Positions 1 to 63,961 of a stretch of DNA of 64,000 nt are shown here, in pieces (position 1 is the first letter of the stretch; each line of letters starts with the position of its first letter). Source of the DNA: Branchiostoma floridae. Its lineage: Eukaryota; Chordata; Leptocardii; Amphioxiformes; Branchiostomatidae. The stretch is from NCBI RefSeq assembly GCF_000003815.2, contig NC_049979.1:15619240-15683239 (forward strand), in the 5' to 3' direction. A program made the translations under genes and the position numbers. The notes beneath the pieces were generated by a model, which did no database searches, had not been told where the DNA came from, and saw nothing but the letters and a program-made list of their open reading frames with translations.

Positions 1-1513
1 GTATTCAGTTGTAAAACATAGGGGATAAGGAAACATTTGACATAATTATGAGTAATATAGCACAATCATAGTTCTTAAAGGGACATAATGTAAATAAGAA
101 AGTCACTGTTTTCGGCCATTTTTTTACATTATGAGTTGATCTACCTTATTACACTGCACAGCAATATTTACAACGTATTGATACGACTTTGTTGTGCCGC
201 CAGAACGTCTCGAAATATGCGCACTTCCCTTCGCCGCTTGAGTTGTCCGCCATTTTATCCAACTCTCCGACGAACCAAAGTGCGCTTTAGAACGTGTTCG
301 GTGGTTTGCTCGAATCGTTACTAAAGTTTGTTGAAAGTCCCTCAGCCTGCGAAGCTCCGAGGATCTGCGACCGCAACGGTCGATCTGGAAATCTACGGCC
401 GGCTTACTTCCGGTAGGCTGCCCGGAAGTAAGTGAATTTGGTCGTGGCTTACTTTGGCATTGTTAATTAGTGCTAGAAATGTGATAGAATGATGAAGATA
501 AGTTGGAAATAAGTTACAAATGTCAATATGACTGGAGATTTTAAAGTTCAGAACCTTTGAAATTTTGGCGCCAAATTTCTACAATATGTCCCTTTAAAGT
601 TTTGGTAGTTTGTATGCTGCCTTCCTCAGGGCTAAAGTGACTGATGCTGAAAACATAGGAAGGTACCAGATAGCCTACTGAAATACTGGCATTTAAGAGA
701 AATTTAATGATTGTGTACAAGAAAATACCCAATGATCTACATGTACCATCCTGATAAAAATTGTTAATAGATCAGTGTAAAATTTCTGCCACTCAGGTGA
801 AGAGGACTGACCGACAGTTCTCACCTGTCATGACTTTATCGTTTCACCACAGCAGAGCATTATGACTCAAACAAGGTCATTTGTTTCTTAGTGTAACTCT
901 TACTCATATCCTGATGTGTATGACTGGGCCTTCAGCTGGGTTAGTCTGATGCTCTGTGCATCATGTGAATAAAGCTGTGTTTTATGTGGTAAACCTATCT
1001 GTGGAGCCTTCTGGCATCTCGTCATAGACCCAGTAAGACCTGTTAAGACTTCAGAAACCTCTATGATCTGTGACCTGTGTAAAGGTTCAAAATACCATGA
1101 ACTCGGGACAGAAACTTTGCATTTTACTTGAATCACTTAAGGGCTTAAGTACAGACATATTACAATCTTTCTGTAATGTTAAACCCAAAGAAGCTTTCAT
1201 ACAACCGACATGTTGATTCCTACTTCTCAGGAAGTACATATGACAATCTCTGTCCAATGTGCTTTAAATGTACTTGGCCAGTTAACTTGATTATATCATG
1301 GTGTCCTTGTGACCCTTCCTAAATGAAACAGGAACTGTAACATCATTGTGAGTAAAGCCAAAGGGGTAATCTAACACTGCAGGCTCCATACTTAATCTCT
1401 CCAAACCTCTTCTGACCTTTGATAACATGTACATCAAACCAAAGTATCATTGGTGGTAAAACTCACAGGGATAGACAAACCTGCAGACCTGGTATTGCTG
1501 ACCTACATTAACG
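1..1513. other. Gene-free left edge, includes IYD 3' flank
   Basis: I find no convincing coding exon here. The part next to 1513 should contain the 3' UTR of the minus-strand IYD gene, but I see no canonical AATAAA on that strand to place its end. A short inverted repeat lies at 403-432 and is listed separately. Confidence 0.5.
403..432. repeat. 11-bp inverted repeat (hairpin)
   Basis: CTTACTTCCGG (403-413) and CCGGAAGTAAG (422-432) are perfect reverse complements separated by 8 bases. Each arm carries an ETS-like CCGGAAGT core. It could be a small fold-back insertion or a paired ETS site. No gene start is visible next to it. Confidence 0.6.
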
Positions 1514-4296
1514 TTACATCAGAACCATGATGTCTTTGAGCTCTCTCCTCTGAAGGTCAGGGACTGTGGCATTGTGAGCAGGATAGCCGATGGGTAGGAG
1601 TAACAGAAGCTTCTCGTTGACTGGCCTGCCGAGTAGTGTACGTAAGGCTGGGCCAGCATTCAGTGGTGTGCTGGTGACTGTGACAAGTCCTGCATTCTGG
1701 GGCACAAGTATGTCAAATCTTCATATAAGTGTCAAGAGATGTTACCCGTCTTATATCAATGAGTAGTTCCAAAATGTTTATTTTCTACAAAATAGTGACA
1801 TGTTAGAATCAATCTAATTGGCTTTATTGTCGCACACATTTTGTTGTGTTAATAAATTTGTTTCACATCTCTACTGTTAGATTTTTCAGCTTTCTGTGAA
1901 CATGATCTGATGAGATCAAATTCTGCAAAGTAATTCTGGCAAGGGAATCAACACATTAGAGCAATTAGTACAGAAGCTCCCTCTAGTGCCCCAAGTTGAA
2001 ACCACAGCAATATGTAAATACTTCCTACGCCTAAGTGTTCACGTGCATGCCCACCATCCTGTCTACACTGATACTTGAAAGGGTCTTAACTTTTAAAGAA
2101 TACTTTGTTGACACCACCCTGTCCAATCATAATTTTGATAACCAGTTATGATATTTGATGTTTGCAGTCCTGAATTTTTTAAATTCCCTCATGGTAGTCA
2201 GTACCCACCTGCATACTGGAGCTGCAGACAGAAACTAACCAAAATGGTTAGTGGATAGCAACTGCCGGGGCAGGTGTGACAGTGACCTGGGTGGTACCTA
2301 GATTAATTGTTACCTGGATTGCAGCAAGAAGAATGCCCACAGAAATGGAGATGCTGATTTCGCTGTAGTAGTGGTTTAGTCGCTCCCCATTTGGTCCGAT
2401 CCCATACGTCTGTTTGAACACCATGATTAGATAGGGTGCTATATCCAGGTATGGCTTCTCCCATGTTGTCCGAAACTTTTCCAGGTCTTTGACCCACGTG
2501 GCACTCATTCTCTTCCTGTAGTTTTATTTGTATTTGATATAAATTTGATATTATTACATGTAAATAAAATACAAACATATCAGCAGCACAATAAAATCAT
2601 TTGTATATGTATGATGCTATTTGATTACCATCACTCATTTTATATTGTAATCATTCAATAATAAAACATAAAATATAACATGACATGTAACGTTATAGTT
2701 CTTACAATATAACTGTTAACTGTTACATGCAATGAAAAGGAAATGTGTGAAGGCCAACCCCACTCATAAACTTAGAAAGCAGCTGGTAGATTCTGCAGTT
2801 TTAGCTTGATAACATGATTTTGGCAGATGAACAGAGAGGAGTAAGCTAACCTGTAGTTGATCTCCTCCTCTGCCTCCACAATTTCCCTGATCTGATGTTT
2901 CAGACTGAAGTCCTGCACAACCACATATGTCCATGGCTGGGTGTGGGCTCCACTGGGTGATGTACCTACAGCATGACACATTGTGTAAAGAAGATTGTCT
3001 AACATTTAAAGTCGCCCATTACAATTTTAGGGCCTTGAGAGTCATTTTTTTTCAAATTCAATTTTCAAAATTGCAGACAAGAAACCATTACTGGCTTGAT
3101 CCTGTGTTGATTAATTGTGGGGCGCAATAAATTCTTCTTGTCCTTTTTCATCCTGTCGGCCAGTTCAGATGGACTAAGCAACTTGACATATTTTATAAAT
3201 AAAGGGGTCCATTTGCAGCATCTTTGCACATTCTTTTTAAACACTCAAAGTATAAAATAATGATACAAATGTGTTAGTATGGTGAAGTAAATGTCAATAT
3301 TGTACCAATTGTGTTTTCGAGGATATTTCCAATGTTAAAGCTCTAAAATTGCATTGAGTGCCTTTAACAGTGTCTAACTGACAACTACAGAATGTACTTT
3401 CAGTTCATCAAATTTAGTGCTAGTAAAATTTTTGGTGCCAAAAGTGCTTTCAAGACGTCCTGATCAGAGCACAACAAAGTCATATTCATACATCGAATAT
3501 TGCTGTGTTTTGCAATAAGGCGGATTCAATTCATAATGTAGACCAAAAACAGTTTATTTTTATGACACATCCCTTTTTCAGGTTAATTAATATAGCAATA
3601 ATAGTTCATTTGTAGCAAGAATGACAAAATTACCAGTGAGGTCCTTAAAAGGCCCTCTTTCCATTTAGTGGCAATCACGGTGCGACCAAAGTGCAACCAA
3701 AATTAAATTTTGATGTCCTGAAATCCATAATTGTTAAATTTCATATGAATTATGATGACTCCATAATGCAAGACATATGAGTATGATTTAAAAGACAACA
3801 ATACACACGAAACGTTTGAAAATCGTTCTTCATATGAAAAGCATTGGTTGCAAAACGGTTGCTGCCCCAGTAGAACTGAGACTGAGAGAGGGTAATGTTA
3901 CCAGACCACGCCCCCTAAGTTACCTGCTGTCTTGATCAGTGTTTGCACGACCCCTAGCGGCACAGGATCGTCACTGAAGAATCGAACGGTCCTTCTCTGG
4001 TCCATCAGTCTGTAAAACTCCACCGATCTTTGGAGCATTTCCTTCTCTGTGTACCTCTTCGGGCGATAAGGAATATGTTCCGTCGTTTCTTCAAGACCTA
4101 GAGGTCCTCCCGCTACTTCTTGGTCTTCCTCGTGGTCATCATCCAGGTCCAGTTGGCGGGCGGGATCGTAAGAAAAACGTCGCCTTCTTTCTTTTCCTGA
4201 GAGACGTTGGGCCAGGAACTTGAGGGATAAGTAGCCGATCAATGCTATGAGCAGATGAGGCCAATACTTGGTCAGAAATGGAGCTGAAAAGTCCAT
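1514..4296 (-). CDS. IYD: Iodotyrosine deiodinase (4 exons, complete)
   Basis: Flavoenzyme that removes iodide from mono- and di-iodotyrosine so that iodide can be reused in thyroid hormone synthesis. It is a membrane-anchored member of the nitroreductase-fold family that uses FMN and NADPH-derived electrons. Exons on the minus strand are 4296-3924, 2965-2851, 2515-2314 and 1696-1514. All junctions are GT-AG and the phases (1, 2, 0) agree, giving 290 aa, close to the roughly 289 aa of the human enzyme. Residues 10-28 form a transmembrane anchor ([18 protein letters not shown]). [14 protein letters not shown] matches the arginine-rich FMN-binding start of the catalytic domain, and [13 protein letters not shown] follows. 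The substrate-lid residues are conserved: Glu and Tyr in EEEINYRKRM, and Lys in TWEKPYLD. The C-terminal part has [25 protein letters not shown]. The stop codon lies inside a TAACGTTA motif. In a chordate with an endostyle this enzyme fits iodide recycling (inference). Confidence 0.95.
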
Positions 4297-5519
4297 TGTC
4301 GTTCCCCTTCTGTTTTGCTAGTGTAGATACCACTGGAGTAGAAAGGCGCCAAGGTAGATGTAACCCGGAAGTGAAGTGGTAGAGGTCAACAGCTGACAGC
4401 AACAACAAAACGTGGGTGGGACACATCGGTAAAGGCCGCATGTAGCCAGCATACAGGTAATGTAATTTTTTTGGGGGGAAGACACTGGCAGCACAGCAGA
4501 TTAGTGTTATCAGTTGTCTTTTGTTACTTGCTTTCAAATTGTCATGTCACACACTAGGACGTCTTGTAAAAGAGAGGCAGCGGCTGTTTTATCTGAATCA
4601 CTGACCAGGTCCTACATGCATGCCAGAGCGCGAACGCTATCTCCGACTCCGTAGGTGCGGTGCAATATTTTATCTGTAACGTTATATTATTCATATTCAC
4701 CTTGCATCCAGCCGATAGGTACCCTTGTCGGGTAATGAGGCTGGTAGCACGGCGGTCGGTTGCTAGGGTATTCTTTCCCGTTGCTATGCGAGTTCGAAAG
4801 AGTATCGGGTTACAAGAGGCCTACTATTTGCTAACCGTAAAATATTTCAAAATAAACAAGATGTTATGACAGGGAAAATGTATTCAAAATAAGATTAAAT
4901 TCGCAATTTTAGATAGTTTGAATCTTCCCGTTTGAATTGAGATAGTTGTTTCGTTTCGATTTTGCTTCCAAAGACGATTTTTTTTCTGTTTCTAGGAAGG
5001 CCTTCAATTTGACCATACTCTTGATAAGATGGGCCGCAAGTGCCATGGCAAATTCTCGATTTTTATATTTTTCGTCATCTGAGAGGCAAATAAAACTTTC
5101 TGTTTTGGGGATTTTTTAATTTTTAATTTTAAGCAAAGTTACAGTCAAAAATATGCGTAAAATGGCATTTTTCGCACTTAATTACCAATAATTCAAAATC
5201 TAAGGCATTTTTTAAAAATCCCCAAAACAGAAATCTCGGGAAAACCGTTGCGGTCATTTTGAGCCGTCAATGAGTTATGTTGGACTATTCTTGGTGGAGA
5301 TCTTAAACGATGTTTGCACGCATGTCATGCTGCACGGAGAGCGGGAGGGTGTTATTGATACCGGTGTAAACAACACTTATGATATTCAAGGTCACCAACA
5401 AAAACGCCAGTAGCTTCGTTACATATTACAGGTTCCAAACAAAGTGAAAGCATAGATGTAATGTCCAGAAAATTGTTTATATTGGTTAAAAACTATATTT
5501 TTCGCCTGATTCAAGTTAG
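4297..5519. other. IYD upstream region, no identified gene
   Basis: This holds the IYD promoter side and then AT-rich sequence. Short plus-strand open frames (for example 4660-4869) show no recognisable domain and no clear donor site. A fold-back repeat is at 5097-5233. If the exon candidate at 5520-5643 is real, its upstream exons should lie here, and I could not identify them. Confidence 0.4.
5097..5233. repeat. Fold-back element with about 22-bp inverted ends
   Basis: The left arm at 5097-5119 (starts TTTCTGTTTTGGGGATTTTT) is repeated in inverted orientation at 5212-5233 (AAAAATCCCCAAAACAGAAA), with about 90 bp of AT-rich sequence between. The structure is MITE-like. No target-site duplication is obvious. 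Confidence 0.6.
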
Positions 5520-5643
5520 TTGGGAGGAAAATGCCAGAAAGCACGGTTTTCCTGCAATGACCGCAGATGACCTAAATAGAACACGGGTTCCGTTCGAATT
5601 ACGTCAGATGGAACATCATCGAAGAAGGTTCGAATTCGGCTAG
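5520..5643 (+). CDS. Possible terminal exon of an unidentified gene
   Basis: After an AG acceptor at 5518-5519 there is an open frame of 40 codons to a TAG at 5641-5643. It is hydrophilic and basic: it starts WEENARKHGFPAMTADDLN and ends in RQMEHHRRRFEFG. The composition looks like the end of a small nuclear-encoded protein, such as a mitochondrial or ciliary factor, but I do not recognise the family. The upstream polypyrimidine tract is weak and no partner exons were found. It may be a chance open frame; the minus strand is also open here. Confidence 0.25.
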
Positions 5644-5879
5644 ACATGGGAGATTTTGAGCCCGTATTTGACCACCGTGTAGAATCGGTATGTAGATGGC
5701 GCAGGGTAGAGTGGAGGAGGCTTTGATATGTAGGCGAGGAATTAAAATGCAGACCTCTTGGAAGATTGTTCAAGCGCCACCAACTGACCAGTCTAACGTG
5801 TACGAACCTTTTAAAGGTTTTAATGGCTAAATTGGCATTTAGACCTGCCATTGTTTTCTCATTAATGAAATAAGAAAGA

Positions 5880-6416
5880 ATGGAGTCGTAACTAATATTG
5901 ATAGATGGGCATGGAAGAATTCTAAATCTGATTTTTTTGGGCCCTATATATGATGTTATCAGGTTTTTATTGCCCCAAGTATAATTTTTTTCTATGAGAA
6001 AATACAACACTTTGGTACATACCACTGCAATGAAGCTATGTTTGTTTCTAAGCTATGCACATAATCATAATGATGAAAGCTACAAACTCACATTTGCGCA
6101 ACTTGATGTCTTTTAATAATCTGCAGTTATTAGAGAATAATTGTTTTCATCTAATTGAAATAAGTCAATTTCTAATAATCATAGATCGTTAGAAGATATG
6201 AAGTCGTGCAAACCTGAGTTTGTAGCTTTCATCATTATGTAACGTTACATGAAAAACATAGCTTCATTGCAGTGGTAACGTTATGACCAAAGTGCTGTAT
6301 TTTCTCATAGAAAAAGTTATTTGAGGCAATAAAAGCTGATGATGTCATCCATATGGCCCAAAAAAACCAGATTTAGAATTCTTTCATGCCCATCTATCAA
6401 TATTCGTTACGGCTAC
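5880..6416. repeat. Long imperfect palindrome (fold-back element, about 535 bp)
   Basis: The left arm from about 5882 (TATTGATAGATGGGCATG near 5896) is repeated inverted at the right end (CATGCCCATCTATCAATA near 6387-6404). The match continues inward through GAATTCTAAATCTG, TTTTCTATGAGAAAATAC, ACTGCAATGAAGCTATG and CATAATGATGAAAGC almost to the centre near 6150. The arms differ by scattered substitutions and by a 6-bp TAACGTTA-type insertion present only in the right arm (6276-6283). No coding capacity is supported. This is a non-autonomous fold-back DNA element. Confidence 0.8.
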
Positions 6417-9400
6417 ATCTACTTTTGCTGACCATATCCATACTATCTGCAAATTGCCCCCATGAGTATACCTATCTATACAGATGTACCCTGGGTGGCA
6501 GGATATATGATTTGATATGAGTTGTTCAGGTGATCCTAACATCTCGGCCATCTCCTAATTGCTCCCGTGAGAACCTGCAGCATATCTTCTTTTTTTGTAC
6601 TGGTATCCCATGGAGAAGTTTCTGAGGTCCACAAGTATCTAATCAGTGCAATCATTGCTTGCTCTTCATTCATTTCCTGCATTGTTGTGCCATTGTGAAG
6701 ACAGAATCAGAACAGGTACACAGAAGAGAAGCTTTAATGCTTTGTGAGGATGTAATGTTTTATTTCCTTTTTCCTACTTCCTGCACTTATTAATTGGGCC
6801 TCCATTTTGCACTGCTCTTCCTTTCAGTTGCCAGGAATCAATCCCTATTATAGCCACTTGGTCAATTCTGGCCTCCAAGCAGAGCACTTCTGGCAAAGGA
6901 AGGACCAGTAGTGTGACTTGGCCAACATTTAGGGTTTTGATGATGTTGTATAAGGTTATCTGTTGGGTTCTCATTTGATATTTTGCAAAGTAATTTTTTT
7001 CACACACAACCACCTCTGAAGTGTCCCTTGCTAGAGTTAGGTTAATGGGATCAGATGACTTCTTCCTGCATACCTTATCCAGGTATTCAGGCAACTAGAT
7101 CAACAGTTGATGATATCATACATATTACATGATGTAACCTGATTGATAACAAAACTCATTGACTGGTTACCATTCATCCCCAAACACTCTGTGTTCTTGT
7201 TGCCTGTTGTACTAAAATGAATCAGCCATTCAGAATACACCCAGGTATTGTTGATCCTGGTAACTTGAGATCATGTTTGGTTGGATGGCCACAAGAGAGG
7301 CCCAGAGGGTCTAATCCACTGTTGACCCCCAAATTGGGTTTGCGGATTTCCTGCAAAGCATAATCTTACCACAAAAATTCCACAGCTTGTTGGTACACAG
7401 GCTTCAGTTCAGATGTCAGAGGAAGAAAATGCACATAATTATATCTATAACTACAGTAATAACACATGTTCTGCTAAGCGTATGCCACTCTGAGTAAAAG
7501 ACAAAATACAGCTTAATACAACAATACCTGGTTTTCCAATGAAAACAAGTATGTTTTGAAAGATAACATATTTTATTATATCATGGTCTGCTTCTTCAGT
7601 ATCACTTGGCAATTACCGGATCTTTTGCTGGGACCTCAGTTGTTGGTCAATATTTGGGTTGTCTAATGTGTGAGGAATGGTGTTGGTAAAGGGGTTAGTG
7701 TTAGCACACTACAGCAAATATTCTACACTCATGGAAAGTGTGGTGATGGCTGAAAAGAGGCTGGTAAGAAAACTGGAGGTCACAAAATTTAACATCAAAT
7801 AAAGGAAAACAACAGTAGAAAGAATAATTGTAGTTAAAGAAAAGCTAGCATTTTTCTCAAATTGTGTTTGTTTGGTCTTCAGCCTTTATGCAGGCTTTCC
7901 TGTTATTTTCATGCCCCCTGTGAAGGACATGGTATGACCCATGTTAAAAGATGTATTGGACGTAAGTGAACATTGTTTTTTCAACAGCCACTCTGCACTG
8001 GGGAAATACTTGTCAGCTGAAGAGAAACACAGTTCTGAAACAGGTGTGCTATAGCAGGTGTTTTTAGAAGGTGAGTTTTTTTGGCTCAATCTGTTGACAC
8101 TTAAGTGCATGGCCACTAAAAATCTGCTGTTGTATGGGTCTGTTACGGCATGCTCATTCAACATGATTCCAGAACTACTCGGTATAAAATGTTCATAGTC
8201 AATCTACAAGAAATTTATGTTGAGAAGAGCATGTGCAATTTGGTCATAGGAAAAATAAATCTCCTCATGCATAGAGAGTATGATTCTTATGTGTACTAGG
8301 TACAAATTTTGGGTCACAATAATTCTTTGTGCAGAAGTGAATAAATCAGCTAACTTTGTAGTAAGTGTGAACAAAACAAAATGACTTTGGGAAAGAGACA
8401 GATATACATTTCTGAAGACCCTTAAGAATTTGCAGACATGTAACATTACAGTTTGTACATATAATGTTGTATAGAATGGGTGGAATGGCTCACATTGTCC
8501 CAACAAAGCTTTATTGGATAAAACCTTGTCAGTTAACATTGATAACATTTAAGGGTCTAAGTCAGCTTTGGTTCATTCATATAAGAATTCTTTGCCAATG
8601 ATCTACAGTCCATAACTGAAAGGTGTTTTGTATGTATATGTTGCCACATTATTTCCCATGATGTCTAGCGGACAGTGACACTCATTCAACATTGACACAT
8701 GTAATGTTAGGGGACTTCTTTTTGAACATGCAGGAAAAAACAGATTGACAAAGTAGAAAATGCCAATCAAAGGTCTAGCTGAATTTCTATATATTCTTGG
8801 TCACAAAACCTACCAGGTAGTACGACATGGAGAACAATCATGCAAATCTATCAAAGTGATGCGATATTTGTCCTTGCTGACAATATCTTTTTCCTGGTCT
8901 ATTGTATGCATTGTATTCATTGATAAATCCTTCTTGATTTCCGCGTAAGGCCTTTCTTTTGTGGTGACCATGTTCTATTCTAGAAAATAGCTGGTAATCT
9001 GCAAATTTAACATCAGTAAAGGATGAAGTATCACAAGACCAGCAAATAGTACTTGCACTGCAATAAAATGTATCGTCATTGCTGCAGTAAGTGTGCTTAA
9101 CTCATAGTGACCTCCTGTGAATTATTACCTTGCCCTTTTCCTTTGACAGCTCCTTGTGCCGGTTTCTTGGTTACAGAGGCATTGTCAGCAGGTACAAACT
9201 TGACAAATAAGATTTACAATTACACAGGGCTAGCATAGATTTCTTGCTGAGACAGCAAGGCAGACTACAGAAATCGCTCAACCAGTCCTCCTCACAAGAC
9301 ATTCATTTGAAGCATAGCATGTCTGTCGCACGATTTGCTCCAACTCAAATCTTTTGTCCGTGGGGTTTTTCAAATTTTCTCCACACCAATTACTCGTGTC

Positions 9401-11467
9401 CAGCCCCGTGGGACTATTGTCGCTAAGCAACTGTTTACAAACCGTAACAGAGTGCGTGCTGCCATGATTGGGATCCTGTTAAGCAACTGCATGCTGTGAC
9501 ACAATCTGTAGTTACCCCTGAAATTCCCAATAGACACCTGAAGATCTGTCCACACAGGTGAGCAACAGCTAGCAGCAAATCTAGACATGGTCAAAGAATA
9601 GTACTGTTGGTTCTAGACCTATTTATACAGTAAACGTGTACTTGCCTTGAACATATATTTTCTGCTAAAAGCGCTATTGTGCTTAATCATTTTATTGGTC
9701 TTTGTAGCAAAGCAAGTTAATATCATGATCTTTTGTGTGGACTCAGCTATTTAAATGTGAGTTGTGCTATAGAAAATAAGCATGATTTTTTCAGGTTGTT
9801 GATAACCCCACACAACTGTGCTTTGGGTTATGTCATGTTAAATCATAGATAACCTATCTACATGTATGCTATAAAAACATGTTGAAGATTGAGATGAGGA
9901 AAGGGTAATCTTTTAATACAGAGTTATATAACTTATATTTTAGCATATCCTGAAAGCCACAGAGGTGAACAGGATGTAAAAGTGCCCTTCTGGACTACCT
10001 GAAGAGCTCTTGTTTACTACTTCAGCCATTCTGTCAGGGGTCAGATTAGACAGGTTAAACCTGTGCTTGTAAAACAAATGTAGTCCTGCATCACACAGAG
10101 GGGATTAAAACTGCCCAGCTGTTTGTGTAGGAAGGCCAGAGGTATCTGTGTAACCCAGGGTACAGGGGAGGCATCCTCGTTTTTACGGGCTGACGGTTAC
10201 CTTTCTTCATAGAGTAGGCTAATTTCATCTTGTATGAAGGCAAGATAGCAGTGGTTTTTAATTAAAGATTATCTCTCATAGTCTCAGTTAATCAGCCTTT
10301 ATGGTGCTATAAATGCTTTAAGTTGTCTGAAATGTAATCTGTTGTTGCTGTGTCCCCAAGGGCACCTGTTTTGATGACATTTTTGTACAGGTTGATGCAT
10401 TTTAACATTTTAAGAGTTGTTACACACAAATTATGAGAACAACTTGGGTAAATGTAGTTTCCCAGTTTTCTTGAATTGAACTCTAAAGAAATCTGGCAAT
10501 TAAGAGCGTGACACAGACATAGGCAAGACTGAAAAGTAAAACAGGTGTTGTCAGGGGTGTTGTTTTGTACTTTTTTGTGGCTCATAACAATGTTGTCAAG
10601 TACCTGCTGTTTGCCAAGGGCGGCAATGCAAAGAAAACGGGCCAATAAGTGCCAGCTTGATATTAACCCCCCAATCTGTATTCTCATATTGCATGCCATT
10701 GTAGGTATAGTAAATGGAACATAATACTTGTAACGTTACATGATTTTTGTTGGAAATATGGCTTTCATTTTAATATCTTAGATTGTGGTAAGCAAACAGG
10801 ATGTATACACTGTAATTTTTGTTACCTTGCTTTGCACTTCCACAGACTTTCCACTTGGATTAATTTCTTCTATACATTGAGACATAGTCATTTGGAAAAA
10901 AAATGATAGAACTGTTATGAGGTCTGAGGAAATTTTTTTGGCCTTAGAGGCAGCACTATTTACTCTCTATGCACACAGACCTCAGGGAGGGAAAAGACAG
11001 TAGGAAAACATGACAGTTCTCTCACCCCTACATCTGTTTGAAATCAATTATCTGGAACCTCCTAATTGATTAATATCACCCTAGGGGGGACAGTCCCATT
11101 GGGGTATACAGCATGGGGCCAATTAACTGGCTTGTCTTTATTATCTGATCTGAGTCAATTGAGGTAAGATGTCATCCCAAGGGATCTACTGTACTAGGGA
11201 GGGAGGGATAATGCTATCCTGGCTGGTTAGCAAGTGAAAGTATTGAGGCAGAAGTGACCACAGAGAATGGTACTCAGGCTAGGATAATGACACTGCTGAA
11301 CTATATTTACTGCAGTATGTCTGGCAGTTCAAGAAACAAAAGACTTTGCATTTTGATAGAAGACAAGAAAGTGACTCTTTTGTGTTACAGTTTCTTAAGG
11401 CACTCTACCATGACTAACGACATCACTGGAAAGTTGCAAACTTGGCTGAACTGAAGAGGCCATAGTA
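6417..11467. other. Intergenic, no supported gene
   Basis: Five kilobases of AT-rich sequence with only short open frames on both strands (the longest are about 90-130 codons, near 8204-8548 and 10307-10699). These have no recognisable domain and no convincing splice context. The right end must include the 5' UTR and promoter of the ankyrin gene. An in-frame TGA at 11447 precedes the ATG at 11468. Confidence 0.45.
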
Positions 11468-14400
11468 ATGACTGAGCCAGAGAGGATTGATGGCATGACC
11501 CTGCTTATGCAGGCCTGCTTAGAGGGAAACACCAAGGCAGTACAAGCTATCTTACAGAAACAGGTGGGTTTACAACTACATGTTTGAAACTGCCAAAAAA
11601 AGACCAGAAAGGATGCTACATTGTATGTTGGGTGAATCATTTGACAGAGAAAAGGTTATATCATTTCTTATTGAAATACCTTTTAATACCCTTGTAAATG
11701 TCTCAAAATTTGTTTTTTTAGATGCAATGATTGTACAGAGTTTCCAACACAAATATCATAATATATAAGGTGGACCTAGAAGGATTGCATAGTGGAGGGG
11801 ACTTTGAGTACAAGATATACTGGAGCTCTTAACAAATGATGTATCTGAATTTTTCTCCTGCAGCCTTCCAGTGTGCATGAAAAAGACTCGTTTGGCAAAA
11901 CCCCACTCCACTACACTGTAGAGAACACCCATCCTGACTGCACTTCTGTCCTGCTCGCCGCAAACCCCAGGCTGGTCAATGTACAAGACGGTAATGGCTA
12001 CGCAGCGCTGCATTTTGCGGCGATGGCAGGAAACACAGTTGTCCTGGAGAGACTGATGCAGTCTCCAGATGTGAATGTCAACATTGAGGATAATGAGAAA
12101 CATACCCCTGTCCACTGGGCTACAGGTATGCATCATTCAGTATTCTAGCGAGCCTGATTTTTTTCTGTTCCCTGGATTTTGGATGGAACTCCTGTCAAGC
12201 GCGGAAGGCGCGATGATCCTTGGGGTCCAAGAAATGTTTACATCTGACCCTCTGAAATGCTATTTTCTGCGTGTTGGAGGGCAAATTTTGATGGTAGAGT
12301 AGTCTCAGCTTCGTTCAATGGCATCTGAACTGAATTTCAAATTTTTGCAAAGATCTTTTCATGCCAATGGGCAAAATTTGTGTCCATCCCCAGCTGCAAA
12401 AGTCCGTCAAATGTTGGAAGGACAGATGCTGGCTAGAACACTTCTTTCTGCCAAAGTCTCAACAACAAAAAAATTTTCTGTTATCTTTTATTAGATGACT
12501 TGCAATGTCTAGACACTGACAATTTGAACTATCTTAACCAATTTAGTTTGTGGGCATCCAACTTGCATTGAGCTCCTGGTTCATCACGATGCAACGGCGG
12601 AAACAGCTGACATCCACGGAGCCTTCCCGCTGCACTATGCTGCCCAGATGTGTGGGACAGAGTACGAGGTACCTGGTATCGGCATGCACTGCCTCTCCAA
12701 GCTGGTACAGAGTAGAGCAGACGTCAACTGTGTGGACGGCAGCGGAAGAACACCTTTGCTGTGGGCTGCCAGTGCAGGTACAGGAACGCAGCGNNNNNNN
12801 NNNNNNNNNNNNNNNNNNNNNNNNNNNNNNNNNNNNNNNNNNNNNNNNNNNNNNNNNNNNNNNNNNNNNNNNNNNNNNNNNNNNNNNNNNNNNGTGCTGT
12901 GATGTGCTGATCTCCCAGTGTGGCTGCCCCGTGGACAGTCTGACAAAAATCAGTGCACACCTCTGTTCTATGCCATATCGTTTGGGCATGGAAACTGCAC
13001 TTCTCTTCTCTTACAAAAGGGGGCATCACCAAATCACCAGGACATCAAAGGAAGGAGGTAAGATGTTTCTAACCCCAAGCAAATATGTGGGTGTTTCATT
13101 GACTGGTAAGTTTGCAGTATTTTAGGTAATCACCTGAGTAGTAAGGGTCTTGATGGAAAATTGTTCCACCAAGCATATGGAGAAACATGGGCGGAGGTGA
13201 CATCTGTATAGATAATAAGTTCCTATAAATAAAGACAGCATGAGTATAACTAATACAATAGAATCTATTAAAAAATCATCATTAGGGTTTTCTTAGATAT
13301 TGCTTTTCACATGCCAATGTTAGGATATATTACTGTTGTAAGAGACAGACTCATAGAGTAAAACAATATACTGCTGCCTACCTGGAATAGCACAAAAATG
13401 CTCAGATATGCAGACATCTTTAACACTTTCCCCCTGAGTGATAGCCAAACAATAGCATTAATGTCACATTTATATGCCTGGAAATTGCCATAAATAAGTT
13501 TAACAATACATTTGACAAAAGCACTTTGGCCTTTAAAGGACAAACTTTTGTTTGAGGTTATTGTCATTGGATACCTTTTGTCCAGTAAGTAGGCTATATA
13601 TATGACACACTCTAGATCTAGACTGAAGAATTAAAGCTTAACATATAGACATAACATTGTTGTTTGGTGCTACCACAGTCCTGTGGTGCAGTTAAAACTC
13701 AAACATGTCAATGCCCTTCTGGAAGAGGATGCGTTATTTCTTTACGGCAGGCTTCAGATGGAAAAGGTAATTTTTCTGTATGATGACATATTTGTTAAGG
13801 ACTTTTGCTCTAAAAGGTTGATTTTTCACCTGAACGTATGGCAAAGTGGCTCAGACTCGGACTGATGTTCTTCTGCTTTGAGTATTGCATGAAGGCTGTA
13901 GTTCGTCAGGATCAGCCATGAGGTGCCAGGAAATTTCAACACATTGTTCCAACTCCAGTCTTCACTGAGGTTCCTCCTTCCACGTTGTCATTGATTACTA
14001 GTACTAGCATATGTCTCCATCTTTTGGCGTCTGGTCTGTCTCTTTCCTTGTGGCTTCCGCTGTAGAACTTAATTGGTTTGCAAATCTTTCCCTTGGAAAT
14101 CTTGCAACATGACTGAGCCAGCTGGACCCTGGCTTTTTTGATATGACATCAGAGCCTAAACCATGTATTTTTTCCGTACCGTGTCAGTCCTGCCTACTGT
14201 GCTGCAGCGAAGGGCCAGACCTCCATGGTGCCCTTCCTCATAGAGCATGGTGGGTCCCTGGATGTCCCCACTCAGGACGGGGAAACGGCACTGCTGGAGG
14301 CTGTCAAAGGAGGACATACAGGTGAGGCAAAGGGAGAAACAAGGAACTGCTTTCAGTTAAAGCAAGTAAGATAATTTGAATGAAAGAGCTGGGGCATTGG

Positions 14401-24408: not shown

Positions 24409-24540
24409 ATGTATGTTGACTAATTGTACTTCGTTCACGCAATAGGAGCATCCCTTCGTGCAGTTTTACCGACTATACCCTACAGTCCCCAATCTAATGG
24501 GTCAATGAGTTTCTGTGATTTAAACATAGTATCAACGACT

Positions 24541-25595: not shown

Positions 25596-25762
25596 ACTCG
25601 TTCTCATTGAAATGTCGAAAATAGCATTTTTTTGGTCGAAAAATAAATCGGCTTTATTTTCAGTGAAAACTACGTGGTTGTTTAGGAAAATTCCTCTTCT
25701 AACCATAGCTAAAAAATGGCAACTTATTATTTTCGGTCCCATTGGTAATGCATTACAGGGCA

Positions 25763-37408: not shown

Positions 37409-37456
37409 CACACACACAGAGAGAGAGACACACACAGACACACACAGCCACGCGCG

Positions 37457-40830: not shown

Positions 40831-42494
40831 CAACTTTTGCCTTCACAGTTAAATGACGGCGTCAAAACAACATTTACTTAACGTCCAGGCTTTCACTGCC
40901 TTGTCTGTTGTAGTTCTTGTGTAGGGTGAAAGTGAGAGTGGGTGCGCAACCCGAACTTTGAGGACCAAGAATCGACACGTTTCTTATATCAGTGTATGCA
41001 GCAAAGTGTAACCTGCGGCAGTCAGAAAGCTGACTTGCATGTTGACCTCTAAATCGTCGCAAGACATGTTGTCGGTGAGGATGACGTGGCATCTTTTTTT
41101 CAGTTCGATGTTGCGATGTCATTCGTCCGGTCTGCTGGCTTGACAAGCACAGATCATGACTGGAATCACTGTGTATATCTCGACAAAATGGAGGTCAAGA
41201 TTATGTATGACCCATGCTGACAAGGCCATGAATGTAAGGTCGTCTTCACTAGCTGTCAGATTAAAATACCTAACGTTACATCATTTTCGTGGTATCAGAT
41301 AACAGCCATAGTTAGTAATTGTCCCTCGATTGTCACAACGGGTCGTTTCATTTTCACATAGAGGGGCGTACTCTGAGACCCTACCTTCTCCGTTCGGACT
41401 CGTTATTTTCAAAATAGTGGATTTCTTTCCTCCAGTACACTATCTTCTTGACGTTTATGCCCGCCCATTCAGTTAAAATCCAAAATAAACCACATTCCTT
41501 GTTGTTTGATTTCCAAGGCTCTGTAATAGAATAGCCCAGATCACTGCAACAGAAAAAATATGACTCACGACCGCCGATATTTTTAGCTGGTGTCGTTGTG
41601 TAAACAAAAGACGTATCCACTGGGCTGTTTTAAGAAGGAGGAAGCAAAGAAAACGAATTTATGTATTTAATCAGTAACAAACGACCTCCTATGAGAAACT
41701 TTGGCCAGCGTCAGATATATTGGATTTGTGATAATTGCTCTGAAATGAAACTTTTAAGTAAGTGATTAAGGTTGTTTTACTGTTGATCGATATCAAGTCA
41801 CAAGTCTGTTATGTTAGTGCTTTCTGTTTGTAATGTAGAAGCGTTAGCTCCAGATCACACGTTGTTATCATTAGTCCGATCACTGGCTAGAATTTGATTA
41901 CGCTGTGGTGCAGAGGTGATAACGCTATCTCTGTTTAATAGTCATTGCTGATCTTCAACCGGACTGAGAGCTTTTCCTGTCTGCACGCTTGTATGAAAAA
42001 GATTCCACTTGGTTTGATAAATCTACAGATAATACAATGACCAGTGAGGACCTAATCATTCTTTGAACAATTTCACGGAATTTTCGTCATCCCGTTCCAA
42101 TTGACATCTTGGATTGTGAACAAAAGTAGTTTGACAGAGATGGACCGACATGAGGTTGTATGGTTGTCCGGGGAACGGGACAGTGCCTGGCGGTTCTAGG
42201 TTACCCGTGTGCTCGGTGCCCCGTCCACGCCTGGCGACCGTCACATGACCCAGCGGTAGATAGTTGGTGGCACACGTCAGTTGGTCGCCTGGGCGGAAAG
42301 ACGGGCGGTGGTCCAGCAACTTACCACAAAGGTCAAAGTTCGCAAGCGGGGGTTGGATGAAAGTCCGAGGTTCAGCAGCGTGGGGTTTCAATGCTTTGTT
42401 CCTCACCCAGTTTTTATTTTCACCTGGCGAAAGGTGTGGCCAGGTTGCTCCGGTGAGACCGCTTTGTCATCTGAAGCCCTGTCGTCATCCGTTG

Positions 42495-48500: not shown

Positions 48501-51500
48501 AAAAGCATTACTGCCTACCGGCCATTTGCAAACCTTTAATAAAGCGATTCCGCCGTGGGAGCCTCCACGTACGCAAATATTGGCACGTCACTGATGTACC
48601 AGATTAATACATTGGTCACAGTTACTGTATACACGGACTGCACCCAGGGAAGCGGCCAGCACACGCATATCATGAAAAGTGTCATCTACTCTTATTCGTA
48701 CCGTACTACGGTAGAAAATTTTTGTTCAAATGAAGGACAGTAAACGTGAAAATGTTTCGAACATTTCGGTATTTCATTTTTCAAGAAACGGAAACGTTAT
48801 CAATAATATCAAGCGCAACTGACTGGATGCAAAATACGAAAACAAGGAATCTAAAATGTCGTATGTGTTTGTAACCTGTTGACGCCCTGACCTTTTTTTT
48901 CGGCGTTAGCATGCACTAGAAGGTAAAAGCTAGAAGTTAGAATCCCTGGAAATTGAATTAGTCCAGCTGTAGGTGGGGAATCCAAGTCCTAGCAATGCAC
49001 ACGTATTGTTAAGCGTCGTGCCAGAGAGGAGAAAACATCGTTATCAATGATCACGACACCGAACATCAAGTAGACAACCCAACAATGGTTAGTGGAGCCT
49101 GATAACATTCATATCAACAGGCAGTTCTACAGGAAAATTATGAGTACAAGAATAACATAATGAAAATCTTGTCACAAAATGTGAGCAGCAATAAGACTGA
49201 GACGGAAAACACATTGACGTTACCAAGACCGTGCACGACACATCAGTAACCTGTCCATGGATTCTCCTGTCTAGTACAAACACATTAACCGAAAGTGAAT
49301 TGAATGGCATATAGTGACGGAGCGGCCCCAGGTGCTGATATCCACCTACAAACGTACGTTTGGTATCTGCAATTTGTACGGGATTACCGAGTAACAGAGA
49401 ACGGACTTAATGTAATCACAATCACAGACCCACAGGAGACAGTGCGGATAAAGGGCGCCCAGGTACATTCATTCATCCGGACGCTATTTAACCAATAGAA
49501 CCTGAGTTATGCAACAGTGTACATGTGTAGTTCGTTTGTACTTTGTTGTAGATTTACAGACAAACACGAATTGGTTGCGCAATCAGAGGTCATAGTACGT
49601 GAAATATATTAAAAGAAAACGACACAAACACTATAGTCAAACCTGTAACTTTTTAACATAATAATTGTGTAGCCTGTAACACAATTTGATTATTTTGTAC
49701 TCATAATTTCCATGTACAACTGTCTGTTGATATGAATGTTAATTGACCTAAAGGTAACAGGTACTAAAATATCAAAAGCTTTATTCTAAATCTCTGTTAA
49801 TCGTTTTTGGCATCATATAGGATCACCTAAACGACTAATCAAGATCATGTCATGTCCGAACATACAATGTACAGATCGCCCCTTATACAATTACGAACTA
49901 ACAAGTCGCCCACATACAAAAACGTCCCGAGAACAATACAGTAGCAGGTAACCGCTTAGTGAACGGTGTAGCCCTCGTGTTGTAATGGATCTGTGGCGTG
50001 AACAGCATATGTAAACACACACACAACAAAGCCTGCGCGCTGCGAGGGGTGAAGGTCAGCCGTTGCTTAGTAAAACTCTGGGCAGCGCTAAATCAGACAG
50101 CTATCATGGTGTGAGGCTTCAGAGTTGTCACGTGGATCACATGGCCAACCGTACTATGGCGGGAACAAGACTTTCGGAATCAGCCGATCGCTGTTTAAGC
50201 TGATCTTATATATTATTAAGTTGCCCTTTTTTCAGCCTGAAGAATATGAAATGTGGACGGCACACCGCAAGCGAACAGCGTAAGATAACTTCGTTGTCGG
50301 TTCTGACGACTTTGTACGATCGACTTTGTACGGAGTCCAGATAGAGATGTTGTTAGATCTGCTACTTACTCTCCAAGCAGAGGTTGGTGGGAAAAATCGT
50401 GACCTTTTCCTTTCATAAGTTTTTTTTTTTCGACCGGGTGGTGTCATACTCCACCAACTACGCATGTAAAAGCCCTGTGTTCATACGATACGGAAATACG
50501 TGTATTGGGTAGGATGGTGATGACTCACTAGGATCAAGGAGCTTTTATCCTGATAAAAGCTCCTTGCTAGGATCTAATTTCTGAAAACGCCAGAAAACTC
50601 GGACCATCTGTTTCCACATCACTGCTAATTACGCATGCCGAAACAGAGAAATATGACGATAATGGCAATGTGATGCAACTCGGTACTGTCCACGTATGTA
50701 ACACACACACTTAGCTATTATAGACACGTACCCCCACAAAACTGACAACTATGTCAAACAACTCATGGTATAGCAAGCGACAAGGTTTATCTGTTCCTAA
50801 CAGGCTAAGCTAAGCCATATAATTTGAAGAATGAAAAGAGGTTCTCTCCTTCCAAACTGTGACGGACTGACTGTAGGAAATTCGAAGAGGTTTATCATAA
50901 ACCGGATAGTCGCATTTGTGTGCTGTCGCAGTCTCCATCGATGTAGAGTGCTACCGCAAACCGTGCCATAATTTGTCGTAAAATGGTTACGCCGTGGTGC
51001 AAATCAAAACACATTTATGGTCGCACGGCGCGAAACCTATTGCACCACGTGCAGTTCATTGGGCCTGATTTACTACCGATTGGGAATGGTTGAATGGGAA
51101 ACTGATAATCGTTCCGACAAGTTGGACACGTTCCAATCGGGCCGGCGGCCCAGCCATGCACGCTACCCGCGCCAGGACAGAAGCCTGCTAATATTGATTA
51201 CTGCAGGTCAGGAGGGAGAAGGTACCACCAAGATAGCCACACTGGAACAGTCATAGTAGTCTGATGGGAGTCGGTAGACAAAATATGAAACGCTGTCTAA
51301 TTGTTTGAGATCGCGAACGTTCACTGATCCTCGTGCCGTGGAGTTGCTGGAGATATAAATTGATAACGATTTGTCTATGCCGGAGTGCCTGTGCCTTGCT
51401 GTGAAGAATAACCACTATGTATATTTCCAGGTGCAGGGGAAGCCCGTACGGCGGGTGTGTTACCGGGGGATGTGCCGGGAGGAGGACCTGATACAGGAGA

Positions 51501-54500
51501 GGGACACGGTCCTGCTCAAGTCGGGGCCGCGCAAGAAGGACCTGCCGTTCGTTGCCAAGGTTACGGCGCTGTGGGAGGATCAGGACGGTAAGGCACAGCT
51601 TACCGTTGAGTGACGTATATGAGAGGATATGAAACTATAAGGAATGTTTTAAAACTACGTGATGTATATACGTATATCTATATTTTTTTAATTAGTGTCT
51701 TATTTTAATAGGGCAAAAAACTGTATCACAACCATCAGGTGGCTGAATACAGAATCAGTTTGCGTTAAACAGAACATCTTCAGTTTAATGCAGTTTCAGC
51801 AACAACAAATAGTGTACAAAGATTATTGAATAAACGTACAATGGGACACTGATTTAGGTAACGTGGGAAATCTTAGATTGTGGAAACTACGAGACTCCAG
51901 TGTTACAATACGGGTGATGTGTGAGGAAAGTTTGATGTCCTTGTGTGTGTGTTCTAGGTGAGATGATGATGAGTCTACTGTGGTACTACAGACCGGAGCA
52001 CATCGAGGGCGGAAAGCGGCCTCAGCATGGAGAGGTAAAACACAGTCATATCATGTTGTAATCATCAGGAGGGGCTAGGATAGGATAGGAAGGGATGAAA
52101 CTTCTGGAAGATTACACGGTGCCCATCGAACCTCCCTCGGAGGTATACAATTTAAAATATTGTGTGAAGTATAGACAACTCGTTAAAGCAAACAAAATCT
52201 TACGAGCCTTCCTATGCCGTCTCGAATAATACATTTTACTTCAAGATTCAAGCACTGCTGATAAATGGCTGATAAAGGGATTTTAGACACGTACTCCAAA
52301 GGTCGTACAGCGAGCGGAAACCGGTGTATATTGACGCTTTTTGACATGTTACAGGCAGAATAGCGCATCCATTTCATATTAGGCATGGTAGATATGGTGG
52401 AAACCTTTAAGGTTAAAAACACCGAAATTTATCTAGAGGATGCCGATTGCAATCAAGAAAGTAGCTGCGCAGTGTCTATTGGGGAAGCCCTGACGGCAGA
52501 TCCTGCATCCATCACCACAGTAGAGACGTAACGTTACCCCATCCGCCCGGGCGGTGGTGTTGTGGATCGGCGTGATTTAAGCCGTCTCAATCCCTCCTCA
52601 TCGCGCCCCCTTCCGGACTAGACGGACGCCATTAGCGCAACATTTACGGTAATTTCGCCGTATTGATTTTAGCCTGGAGGTTCCAGGAAAATGGCTGTTC
52701 CGGGAAGCTGCCGTCAGTACCCAGCCACCTCAGCCATCGCCCGAACAATGAATAATTGAATTTCTACCGTAACCTAAAAGGCAACGCCGTGGTTGCTTGA
52801 ATTCATTATTTTCGGTTGGGAAAAACGATATTTTCTTTTTTAAATGACCGGGTTAATTGCTTGGCAAAGTGGGCAAGTATTTTAAGTGATCTAGTTATTA
52901 CGGCAAGTACCAGGGCTCCAAATGCCGTTTTGTCTTGTACAATATACCATATGGTTCCTAGTTTCTATTTTTTTCAGCTTTTTATACCAAATCCGTCTGC
53001 AATCTCAGTTGTTTTACAATTCCAAGCCCTATAGGTTGGTATCTCAAGTTCTGAAATGTGAAAATTTCTATCTTATCTGGATAGCGGTATCGTATGTTAC
53101 AATCGTACATTTTGATGTAGACCACAATTACGAAGGAACATTGATTGGGTGTTCATGTAGTGAACTCCATACAGTTAGTAAACGTACCAATAGGGAGACT
53201 TTAAACACGACGGCGTGGTCTAGGAATTGTGAAAACTGTTGCATTATGAACGTCATAACAACAAGTCATACGGAAGCTTCAGAACCTGGCGCTTAAGGCG
53301 ATAGTGCGACAAAGGAATTACTGTATAGCTGACGCCAAATCACTATAAGAAACCTAATGTAGTATTTTCGTCACGATGTTGTGTGTTGTTGAAGACATCA
53401 TAAATGTGCATAGTCTTGTGATTTGTGGTTGTGACGTTTGCAGGCAAGACAGGTGTTTTAGAATCTACCAGGACAGGCCAACGGGTGTCCCGCGACTCGT
53501 TAGTGGGGCGTCCTCTTCCCATTGCGTCATGGCCGCATGATTAACCCATTCGTGCCCGACATGTGCGCACTTCAAACGTCAACTGCCACTTTCAAGTCCC
53601 GAACGTGGGCGCGTCAAATGTTCCAAACCTTCACAAATGGAAGAGCTCGCTTTGACGTGCTCATTAGGAAATGTACCTGCCACCTCCCACGTGGGCATGC
53701 GTCATGAAACGTGCTGGTTACCGCGGCTACTCGGGCACTTCAGGCCAGGGGAGTATGTGAGGCCAATGTGCTAACGTTAAGTGTACACATGTAGCTTAAC
53801 GTTGTTCTGACACATCAAATACACGCACCGGATTTTCCGCTGATCTGATGTATCATAAGTGGCCTTGTGATGTTACAAGATAAAACGTCACTAAGTGTGT
53901 GAGGTATGGATGTTACACAGACATTTGACTTCCCCACTCGTCGTGGCTAATGCTTTGGTCACGGATTGGAAAAGGGGCCCTGCCCTGTTCACGGGCTTTT
54001 TTTGTCACTTTCGGGCGTGACCCCTACCTGTCTCCTCGGGGCATCCTGCGACTGCGGGATACTTTGGGTCATGACCGGACCCCGGATTGATTTTAACTCG
54101 GAGTTAAAATCAACCCGGGACCCGTTAACAAATAGACACCGTAAGGTCATCGTTACGCCGAGAGGTACCCCCGCGGTATCCGGCAGTCCACCGGGACAAA
54201 TTTGTGGCTTCGGGGCCCTGCCGGGGTTACACCTCCTATGGGCACCGGTGTAAATGTGACTGAAGCATTCGTCACCATTTATGGGGGAGCCTCTGGTGTT
54301 AACCTAAGGCGGCAGATCTCTGCACGCCAAAGGACCCAGCACACTTACCGAGACGGGTAGGGATGGTCCGTTGTGTTTGGCTGGTAAACGCAAGCTGTGC
54401 TGAAGTACAATTGCATTATCACTCTGATCAGCTATAAAAAAAATTAAAAAAAACACGTTACGCTCGGTCTGCCTTAGTTTACCTGCAAGAGCTTGAAACT

Positions 54501-57035: not shown

Positions 57036-57251
57036 CACGCACCTGTACAGTTGTGTATAGAGAGTCGGGCGAGAATACAGAAATCTGCGATAGTATTTTG
57101 CTTAGAGAATCGCCGGATCACCCCTATTACTAATCCCCTTGTACACGCACCTGTACAGTTGTGTATAGAGAGTCGGGCGAGAATACAGAAATCTGCGATA
57201 GTATTTTGCTTAGAGAATCGCCGGATCACCCCTATTACTAATCCCCTTGTA
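57036..57251. repeat. Perfect tandem duplication, 2 x 108 bp
   Basis: 57036-57143 is repeated without any difference at 57144-57251. The unit starts CACGCACCTGTACAGTTGTG. As 108 is a multiple of three, open frames run through on both strands and create a false 36-residue protein repeat. It lies in the presumed BAHD1 3' UTR. Confidence 0.95.
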
Positions 57252-57494: not shown

Positions 57495-57775
57495 AACTAT
57501 TGCCACTTCTACTCAATGCTACCTCACTAGTGTCACTTCTACAACTATACTCAATTGAGATACAACACTGGTGTCACTTCTATACATATACTTGAAGCTA
57601 CCACACTATACATACTGTCACTTCTACAACTATACTCAATGCTATTACAATAGTGTCACCTCTACAAGTGTATTCAATCTTACCTTACTATATATACTGT
57701 CACTTCTACAACTATGTATAGTGTCACTTCAACAACAATACTCAATGCTACCACAATAGTGTCACTTCTACAACT
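57495..57775. repeat. Diverged minisatellite (GTGTCACTTCTACAAC units)
   Basis: About seven irregular units of roughly 25-50 bp built around GTGTCACTTCTACAACTATA followed by CTCAATGCTACCACA. The units are variably truncated. Confidence 0.75.
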
Positions 57776-58187
57776 AGATGAATCAAATGCATAATTATGT
57801 GAAGCATAGGAACCTGGAAATACAGTCGATAATTGGTTAGGGGTAGCTATGGACTTGCTGGTCTTCATCTGTTGCTTGAACAGGAGTTGCTACGGCAAGA
57901 AAGTAGAAAAGGGGGATTTTCCCATAATTCAACATTTAGAAACAGTACGTCTCCATCAAACATTTGACCGATTCTTTTTTCTCTTTACTTTCAGGCAGAC
58001 AATGTGGCACTGCACTCAAATCATTAACTTATTCTAACAGTACCACATACAAAGGGCAGACAGATGGTGAATGTAGTCTCATAGCCTTTTGAGTCTGTAA
58101 GGGCAGTGGGTCTATGCACGGTAGTGGATGGCTGTGCCCCAAATCGTCATGTTACGTACTGTAGTGTTTCCACGCTTTGGTATCAGA

Positions 58188-62125: not shown

Positions 62126-63961
62126 CTACTTTGGTACAGTGGCAGCATCTTCATCGTCAGAAATCAGGGGCCATTGCTCATCAGAAGGCTGTTGTTGTCC
62201 TGTTGATGGAGCTGTTTCAGTAGCAAAATCTTCAGAACCAGCATCTTCCTGCACCTAAGGTATGATAGGATGCATGTCAGCCATGCATATGTCACATGCA
62301 GAAGCTATGTGTGGACAGCGCTACAAGACACACATACATGAAGGCATCTATGCGTACATAAAAACAGCACATAATTTCCAATATACATAATTTAAAATTT
62401 GTAGGCCACATTGTAAATTGACTAATAGGAGCTTTTGAAAAGAAACTGTTAGGATATGAGTGCAATTCGGGACCAACTGGTAGACAGAAACACACCTGTA
62501 TTGCGATTGAGGTGGGCTCAGTGCGGTCTTGTCCACTCTCCTGCTCGGCTTCGACTGTGACTGCAGGTCCTGCAGGCGCCTGAACGACCTCATCATCTAC
62601 TGGTGCAGGGGGTACTGGAATCTGTACGAGACCTCCTTGATTTTCTATAAGTACAAAACCGGATTAGCTAGATACTGTGGCAGCTCTTCTGCTAAACAAG
62701 GAAACCGTAATCTAATTTCATAAAGGAGATGATGGCCTTCTTTTTATCAACTACTGTTTACTCTGTAGTGTTGTAAAATCAATTATCCTGTAATGTTTAT
62801 TCACTTATTTCTATCGTGACGCCTTCAACAAGCTTGTGTAAATAACTACTTGTATTGTGCCGTTACCTTGGTCCCTGTGCTGTTCCTCATCATGGCGCCT
62901 TCTGTACCACAGCTTGTACAAAAGGACCGCAGCCAGCATGGACAGCACCAGGACAGGCACTCCAACACCCACTCCGATCTTCCATTGATCTGAAAGAGAG
63001 AACATTTGTATGCCATTAATTGTGTATCAGCATGTAGAAAAGCAAGTTTAAGATGGTATTGACAAAATATTGTTTTCCTACAAGTATCCCGATGGGTTGT
63101 TTTCGATCAATCAATCAATCAATCGATAGATCGATAGATTGACTTAGATTTACTAAGAAACAAACGTTCTGAAGAATGTGCCATTTGATCCTTGTTGGGG
63201 AATCCCCAATCGCTAGGCTTTTGAAGGCAGAGGCAGAGTAAATATGAGCTAATGGGTTATGTCATTCAAAGTAAACATTGCTTTGTTCTTGAGTCTTGAC
63301 CATATAAGGCAACAATACTCAGTCACACATTTTTGTTTGTTTTCTTTCGATCACTCCTTACCTCTGAATGTGGCCTCTGACCCAAGGTTACTGCCATTGA
63401 ACTAACGTTATAGGGAGACTACAGTTCTTGGGAATTCACCAACCTCTGATGAGTTTTCGTACATGATATGATATGATGAAGTGACTTAGACATAGAACTG
63501 TCAATAAAGATTACTTACCAGGCGTCTTGGAACCTTTTCCTGGTGTACCTTCAAGAAAAACGTCAACTTGTCAGGTGAAAACGTATCTGTACAAAAATAT
63601 CTTAGAAGTGGCTGCATCTATTCATGCTATATGCTATGTGACAGATAAAATGAATAGGAAGACAATTATATATATAAACTTAATTCAGATCTAATCTATT
63701 ACCAAAAAATGACACAATGATACCCTGCAGGAGGCAAGCCAATAAACTTTTCTGTGTCATTTCATTTCATTATATTGTAAATAGCATGGTCGCCGATAAA
63801 AAGGAAAAGGGAAAACAAGAAGTAGAACTCACCACAAAGTGCGCAATATGGAGAATCCGGGTACTTGGTGCATGTATCACACGCAACACAGTTCCCTAGG
63901 CCATCGGGCACTTCACCAGCGGCACATGCAGCCAAGGCTATATTAAGTGCGGCAGGTGCAT
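62126..63961 (-). CDS. TNF-receptor-superfamily protein, Fn14-like, 5' end outside the window
   Basis: Minus-strand exons are 63961-63833, 63548-63519 (30-bp mini-exon), 62989-62867, 62644-62496 and 62254-62126. Phases 1, 1, 1, 0 agree, giving 185 residues to a TAG at 62128-62126. The ectodomain exon has six cysteines: C-x11-C-x2-C-x2-C-x8-C-x2-C (ending CVACDTCTKYPDSPYCALC). This is almost the spacing of Fn14/TNFRSF12A, the TWEAK receptor (C-x12-C-x2-C-x2-C-x8-C-x2-C). Also as in Fn14, it sits close to the membrane. A transmembrane helix (IGVGVGVPVLVLSMLAAVLL) and YKLWYRRRH follow. The tail of about 105 residues is acidic with no death domain. AEQE fits the loose TRAF2-type [PSAT]x[QE]E pattern, and DEQWPLISDDED resembles an LC3-interacting motif. 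Signal-peptide and any further repeat exons must lie beyond 64000. Confidence 0.83.
63107..63141. repeat. (AATC)n/(GATA)n short tandem repeat
   Basis: Four AATC units followed by CGATAGATCGATAGATTG, partly self-complementary. It lies in the intron before the transmembrane exon. Confidence 0.75.

Follow-up and report, generated by a model that had tools for sequence, protein, structure and literature searches.

A recurrent TA-flanked palindrome in a 64-kb amphioxus window and its probable origin as a transposon excision scar

Enrichment and specificity of the palindrome

The question raised by this locus is why a single 8-letter palindrome, TAACGTTA, should recur along a 64-kb stretch of animal-like DNA, in which one reading frame matches iodotyrosine deiodinase, another encodes a kinase, and ankyrin repeats are present (the whole stretch analysed is called here the window). 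We found 15 exact copies, located at 1509–1516, 2688–2695, 4677–4684, 6240–6247, 6276–6283, 10731–10738, 25185–25192, 25231–25238, 28367–28374, 30668–30675, 37210–37217, 41271–41278, 52529–52536, 53772–53779, and 63403–63410, and every one of the 15 start positions listed in the initial annotation, which had read the word as a transposon footprint, was exact. The second-order Markov formula for the window gave an expectation of 0.67 copies, 60 second-order simulations yielded a mean of 0.57 (maximum 3), and 100 dinucleotide shuffles a mean of 0.97 (maximum 4), so that the earlier estimate of about one copy by chance agrees with the 0.6 to 1.0 obtained here. On the second-order formula, the simulations, and the shuffles alike, chance or base composition was rejected as the cause of the count. 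Of the 8-mers occurring 7 times or more, (AC)n alone had a z-score above that of TAACGTTA, which ranked first by z among all 256 palindromic 8-mers. When words composed of 2 TAs separated by 1 to 6 inserted bases were compared, only TAACGTTA, TATATATA, and TACATGTA, together with the longer TATATATATA and TAACGTTATA, exceeded z = 5. The distribution of the 15 sites did not deviate significantly from evenness (p = 0.32), and none of them lay inside six hand-picked gene-like reading frames. The pattern is real and specific.

The excess shrinks at higher Markov order because the fifth- and sixth-order models are trained on sub-words of TAACGTTA itself. The fifth-order model expected 4.9 copies (P(≥15) = 1.7 × 10−4), and the sixth-order model expected 11.8, which absorbs the excess. 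Taken at face value, the latter figure would favor composition, or an unrecognised longer repeat, as the source of the count, and so would the flanks of site 2688, which match 8435–8468 along 36 bp (83%; E = 0.002), where the one-mismatch form TAACATTA is present at 8441; this pair may conceivably descend from a longer common sequence. However, the sixth-order model has been trained on the motif's own 7-mers, and blastn of the 80-bp flanks (hits starting less than 90 bp from the query site were dropped) returned the two known duplications described below and otherwise just matches of 15–38 bp, of which that between 2688 and 8435–8468 was the most notable. A longer repeat shared by the sites was rejected on this result, and we give very little credence to composition or an unrecognised repeat as the explanation.

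Rfam searched at gathering thresholds gave 0 matches. Among the literature matches listed, no title or abstract start treats TAACGTTA as a transposon scar, and the motif is likewise undescribed in the titles and abstract starts of the best matches on amphioxus transposons, footprints, and Minos. On footprints, PMC9209771 and PMC9635669 yielded nothing usable.

Six-base presence and absence in duplicated DNA

A second copy within the window exists for 4 of the 15 sites, in a duplication and in a large palindrome; the other 11 gave only the short blastn matches already mentioned. The duplication pairs 21383–22431 (copy A) with 24541–25590 (copy B), with 844 of 970 aligned bases identical and 29 gaps. 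The palindrome extends over about 540 bp (5880–6418), with arms of about 270 bp around a centre of about 6 bp, 226 of 259 aligned bases identical (approximately 87%), and 14 gaps. At 3 of the 4 comparable sites (25185 and 25231 in copy B, and 6276 in the right arm of the palindrome) the counterpart is shorter by precisely ACGTTA and retains a single TA. The partner of 25185 is a single TA at 22016–22017 in copy A, that of 25231 is the single TA in ATGTACAT at 22078–22079, also in copy A, and that of 6276 is a single TA at 6020–6021 in the left arm. The three homologous comparisons on which the footprint reading had been built are all real, each with an exact 6-bp difference at TA.

The duplication contains four gaps of 6 bp, at each of which copy B has the additional bases; two of the four correspond to TAACGTTA at 25185 and 25231; the palindrome has two, one of which is the motif at 6276 set against the TA at 6020. 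Without the motif, the alignment score rose by 10 at all 3 sites. In a control that deleted all other 6-mers one at a time, the score improved to some degree at 104 of 1044 positions in copy B and at 22 of 267 in the right arm; a gain of 10 was also obtained at both copy B gaps of 6 bp that do not involve the motif. The 6-bp gaps at the motif are exact, though they are not the sole 6-bp gaps. The fourth comparable site, 6240, is confined to the right arm, as is 6276, and its left-arm partner reads ATGCAC, which is not a clean empty site: an empty TA is reached only by assuming a T-to-C change, a tandem duplication of CATAAT, and one more gap of 6 bp. Removal of the motif at 6240 gained just 1 in score, and the site was not counted as clean.

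These comparisons bear on two further explanations. The first is that TAACGTTA is ancestral and was precisely lost, perhaps through a microhomology deletion between the two TAs or the action of an excising enzyme, which would suit the TA flanks at both ends and a comparison of two copies that fixes no polarity. Such a history would require three losses with the same breakpoints, and the motif is found in both copies at none of the 4 comparable sites; we regard it as very improbable. In these two-copy comparisons, a gain of 6 bp is the simpler and more probable reading. The second is that the word is a binding site under selection, gained or lost by small indels. A palindromic and highly enriched word with an extended flank consensus, ATGTAACGTTACAT, has the appearance of such a site, but in all 3 clean comparisons the sister copy is short of the motif by exactly 6 bp with TA left, and selection leaves the fixed length and position of the indel unexplained, making a binding site an improbable source.

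Between the two copies of the duplication (21.4–22.4 and 24.5–25.6 kb) lies the kinase reading frame (23050–24408; 452 codons), as if bracketed by direct repeats.

Target preference and uniformity of the product

With the 6 bp subtracted, the 15 sites resemble ATG-TA-CAT. Over the 30 half-sites, A was present at position −3 in 57% (17/30), T at −2 in 60%, and G at −1 in 50%. Against a background of 5000 draws of 15 among 4144 TA sites, the information content of the flanks was significant over 3 positions (p = 0.0004) and over 5 positions (p = 0.0002). The match to ATG was 50 versus 26.3 ± 4.5, a comparison made with a post hoc consensus, and the exact ATG/CAT was seen in 9 of 30 half-sites (p = 1.6 × 10−8, with the consensus chosen from the same sites), while palindromy of the flanks by itself was weak (p = 0.02 and 0.05). 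CAT stands directly after the motif at 1509, 10731, and 41271, ATG directly before it at 2688, and both flank the site at 6240. The flank GTAACGTTACAT, on which several sites had been said to agree, occurs in full at 3 of the 15 (6240, 10731, and 25231) and is not carried by the rest. The TAACGTTA sites display the TA-centred target preference expected of Tc1/mariner footprints.

A spread of sibling products is usual for such footprints, although not defining, and it was not found here. Two-base AC and GT overhangs processed by ordinary end joining predict TAACTA and TAGTTA as siblings. These single-overhang forms occurred 12 times (11.65 expected) and 11 times (10.81 expected), respectively, or 23 jointly versus 22.5 expected, with a 95% upper limit of the excess of about 10. 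The one-base-trimmed forms totalled 9 versus 6.6 expected; TAAGTTA (7 versus 3.4) and TAACTGTTA (2 versus 0.34) are at most in slight excess, TAACTTA is not in excess, and the three-base form TAACATGTTA has 0 occurrences in the window. The 24 one-mismatch neighbours of the motif sum to 29 occurrences versus about 20 expected, with ATG before in 5 of 29 and CAT after in 0 of 29 (joint p = 0.01), and some decayed scars may exist among them. When TAAC and GTTA were spaced apart, only the 4-base spacing stood out (5 versus 1.0), and 4 of these 5 belong to a local repeat at 25.76–26.14 kb.

The scar is strikingly uniform and its siblings are not in clear excess, which favors either a self-complementary ACGT overhang or two-base overhangs that are both always retained. 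Of the scheme originally proposed, in which an element starting AC and ending GT leaves TA-AC-GT-TA, the geometry, the TA-centred preference, and the existence of an AC...GT element hold up, whereas TAACTA and TAGTTA remain at background. The main rival explanation is that the 6 bp were inserted directly as an extremely short palindrome composed of ACGT and a duplicated TA, either by a TA-cutting transposase that joined only end fragments or when a break at TA with a two-base stagger was repaired. Direct insertion accounts for one uniform product and for the missing sibling footprints, is in keeping with the scarcity of evident donors relative to the 15 scars, and fits the presence/absence data equally well. 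Nonetheless, we know of no transposase mobilising anything as short as 6 bp, and an inverted-repeat element with AC...GT ends and TA flanks does exist in the window, so that we consider direct insertion rather unlikely.

The region 25763–26143, which contains the local repeat mentioned above, carries three copies of the 15-mer GGTAACGTTTGTTAC (at 25779, 25942, and 26128) plus one in inverted orientation that faces the first head to head, the two making a perfect 30-bp palindrome. This array is either a local repeat or an element whose inverted ends are 16 bp long.

The ends of Minos, a Tc1-like element of Drosophila, start ACGA, not ACGT, and would leave a nearly self-complementary four-base overhang. 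Minos is reported to leave a 6-bp footprint, like the one seen here (PMC10992017), and among the systems compared it is the nearest precedent for the model of a four-base ACGT overhang. Sealing by a self-complementary four-base overhang, as proposed for ACGT, is reported for the TTAA overhang of piggyBac, which seals cleanly (PMC3408717), but piggyBac restores the empty site without extra bases, whereas 6 bp remain at TA in the window. More generally, Tc1/mariner footprints are described as a duplicated TA plus overhang bases (PMC3878927, PMC7827188), and the present sites resemble those of Sleeping Beauty, Frog Prince, Himar1, ZB, and Passer in having TA duplicated and a few terminal bases between the TAs (PMC3878927, PMC7913693, PMC9976928, PMC7827188). 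They also resemble Passer, a pogo-type element, in their palindromic TA-centred target, which is given for Passer as AAGTACTT (PMC9976928). Unlike the Tc1/mariner footprints in these accounts, which are variable (C(A/T)GTA for Sleeping Beauty), the window holds one symmetric four-base remnant at a density of 15 per 64 kb. Such a uniform product is unusual beside the mixed footprints reported for rice, where only 8 perfect cases were counted among 94 putative excisions (PMC4423477), for ZB and Passer, whose excision leaves 0–3 bp (PMC7913693) and 0–4 bp (PMC9976928), respectively, and for the Stowaway MITE in Triticeae, which leaves 1–4-bp end fragments in several forms (PMC1925063). Stowaway is similar in that comparing homologous sequences reveals natural scars at a TA (PMC1925063) and dissimilar in that it has several footprints at one locus, with asymmetric end fragments.

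Candidate donor, proposed mechanism, and a possible second scar

One candidate donor-type element was found at 49103–49741, consisting of TA, 635 bp (ACATTCATATCAACAG...CTGTTGATATGAATGT), and TA, with inverted repeats of about 53–60 bp that are 83–91% alike. It begins AC and ends GT, that is, two bases are matched at each end, and no link ties it to any of the sites. Positions 3 and 4 of the element are AT (it starts ACAT, not ACGT), its flanks, CCTGA and ATTGA, show no match to ATG/CAT, and it has no Pfam domain in six frames and no second copy in the window. Longer or asymmetric footprints that its ends could have left were also considered, and none was clearly in excess. The initial annotation had asked for an element with terminal inverted repeats starting AC; one of that form is present, although luck could provide one. 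When the window was scanned for inverted repeats flanked by TA, with the first 3 bases required to be exact, no fewer than 14 of 16 matching, a spacing of 60–4000 bp, and low-complexity ends excluded, 11 hits representing five independent structures were obtained, one of them beginning AC. AC follows 5.9% of TA sites, so that among five structures luck would produce at least one AC start with a probability of about one quarter. Applied to direct repeats as a control, the scan returned 47 hits versus 11, many in tandem arrays. A looser scan for AC-start inverted repeats (at least 9 of 12 matching) also gave 47 hits, and some of the top 20 pair two TAACGTTA sites, which we take for chance.

The end pattern of the 635-bp element had 0 exact matches in viral_contigs and 0 in genome_contigs, which are viral and prokaryotic collections and say little here. 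No Pfam transposase (E up to 0.001) was detected in six frames of 1–15000 and 24501–39500 (30 of the 64 kb); elsewhere in the window the Pfam search covered three chosen reading-frame pieces and the 635-bp element only. At about 29296–29550 on the minus strand there is a Pfam adh_short match (E = 2.9 × 10−7), a short-chain dehydrogenase that is probably an exon or a relic.

Other repeats were noted in the window. An inverted-repeat element at 75–600 has ends AAGGGACATAATGTAA and the reverse complement of AAGGGACATATTGTAG, with TTAA-like flanks, and its internal piece 125–197 recurs inverted and diverged at 3469–3540. Segments 20112–20177 and 28072–28135, each of about 66 bp, are diverged copies of each other in inverted orientation (79%), perhaps a dispersed repeat. 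At 57036–57251 and 57510–57799, a 108-bp unit is exactly duplicated in tandem, and a degenerate tandem array comes after it.

We consider that most copies of TAACGTTA are probably excision scars of a TA-inserting DNA transposon working like Tc1/mariner. The transposase would pick TA sites resembling ATG-TA-CAT, and the transposon would insert at TA, duplicating it. On excision, staggered cuts within the element would leave its terminal bases attached to the flanking DNA, to be sealed by end joining as TA-ACGT-TA. A single product would arise if a four-base ACGT overhang paired with itself and was cleanly ligated, or alternatively if both two-base overhangs (AC and GT) were kept every time. The gain of the 6 bp, their origin in an excision, the kind of transposase, and the overhang length are what we infer from the sites. 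TAACGTTA appears to work like a Tc1/mariner footprint; membership in that family is not claimed because neither the element nor its transposase is in hand.

The related word TACATGTA occurred 12 times in the window versus 1.5–2.4 expected, at 738, 2555, 9859, 27651, 30691, 33942, 35311, 38770, 38802, 57335, 61008, and 61419. It has A at −3 in 15 of 24 half-sites versus a 30% background (p = 0.001, at a position picked after looking), the same base that is common at −3 of TAACGTTA (17/30). The full ATG/CAT is present in just 2 of its 24 half-sites, and none of the 12 sites lies within the window duplications. TACATGTA may represent a second scar class, as the ends of a CA...TG element would leave.

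Excision of transposons is often self-erasing or leaves mixed scars, so that past departures are hard to count. Scars of this kind are known; the uniformity and density of TAACGTTA would be new if they hold genome-wide. We put forward, tentatively and as a conjecture that could well fail, that identical ACGT scars occur in very large number across this animal genome, that a self-complementary overhang seals every excision alike, making past excisions readable as one 8-mer, and that TACATGTA may add a second class derived from CA...TG elements. If the 6 bp were instead inserted directly, they would constitute a new kind of micro-insertion needing explanation. If the excision reading is true, a uniform and dense scar would provide a genome-wide record of excision, datable by decay and by presence or absence among haplotypes, and the TAACGTTA scars would test how the sequence of an overhang decides the outcome of repair.
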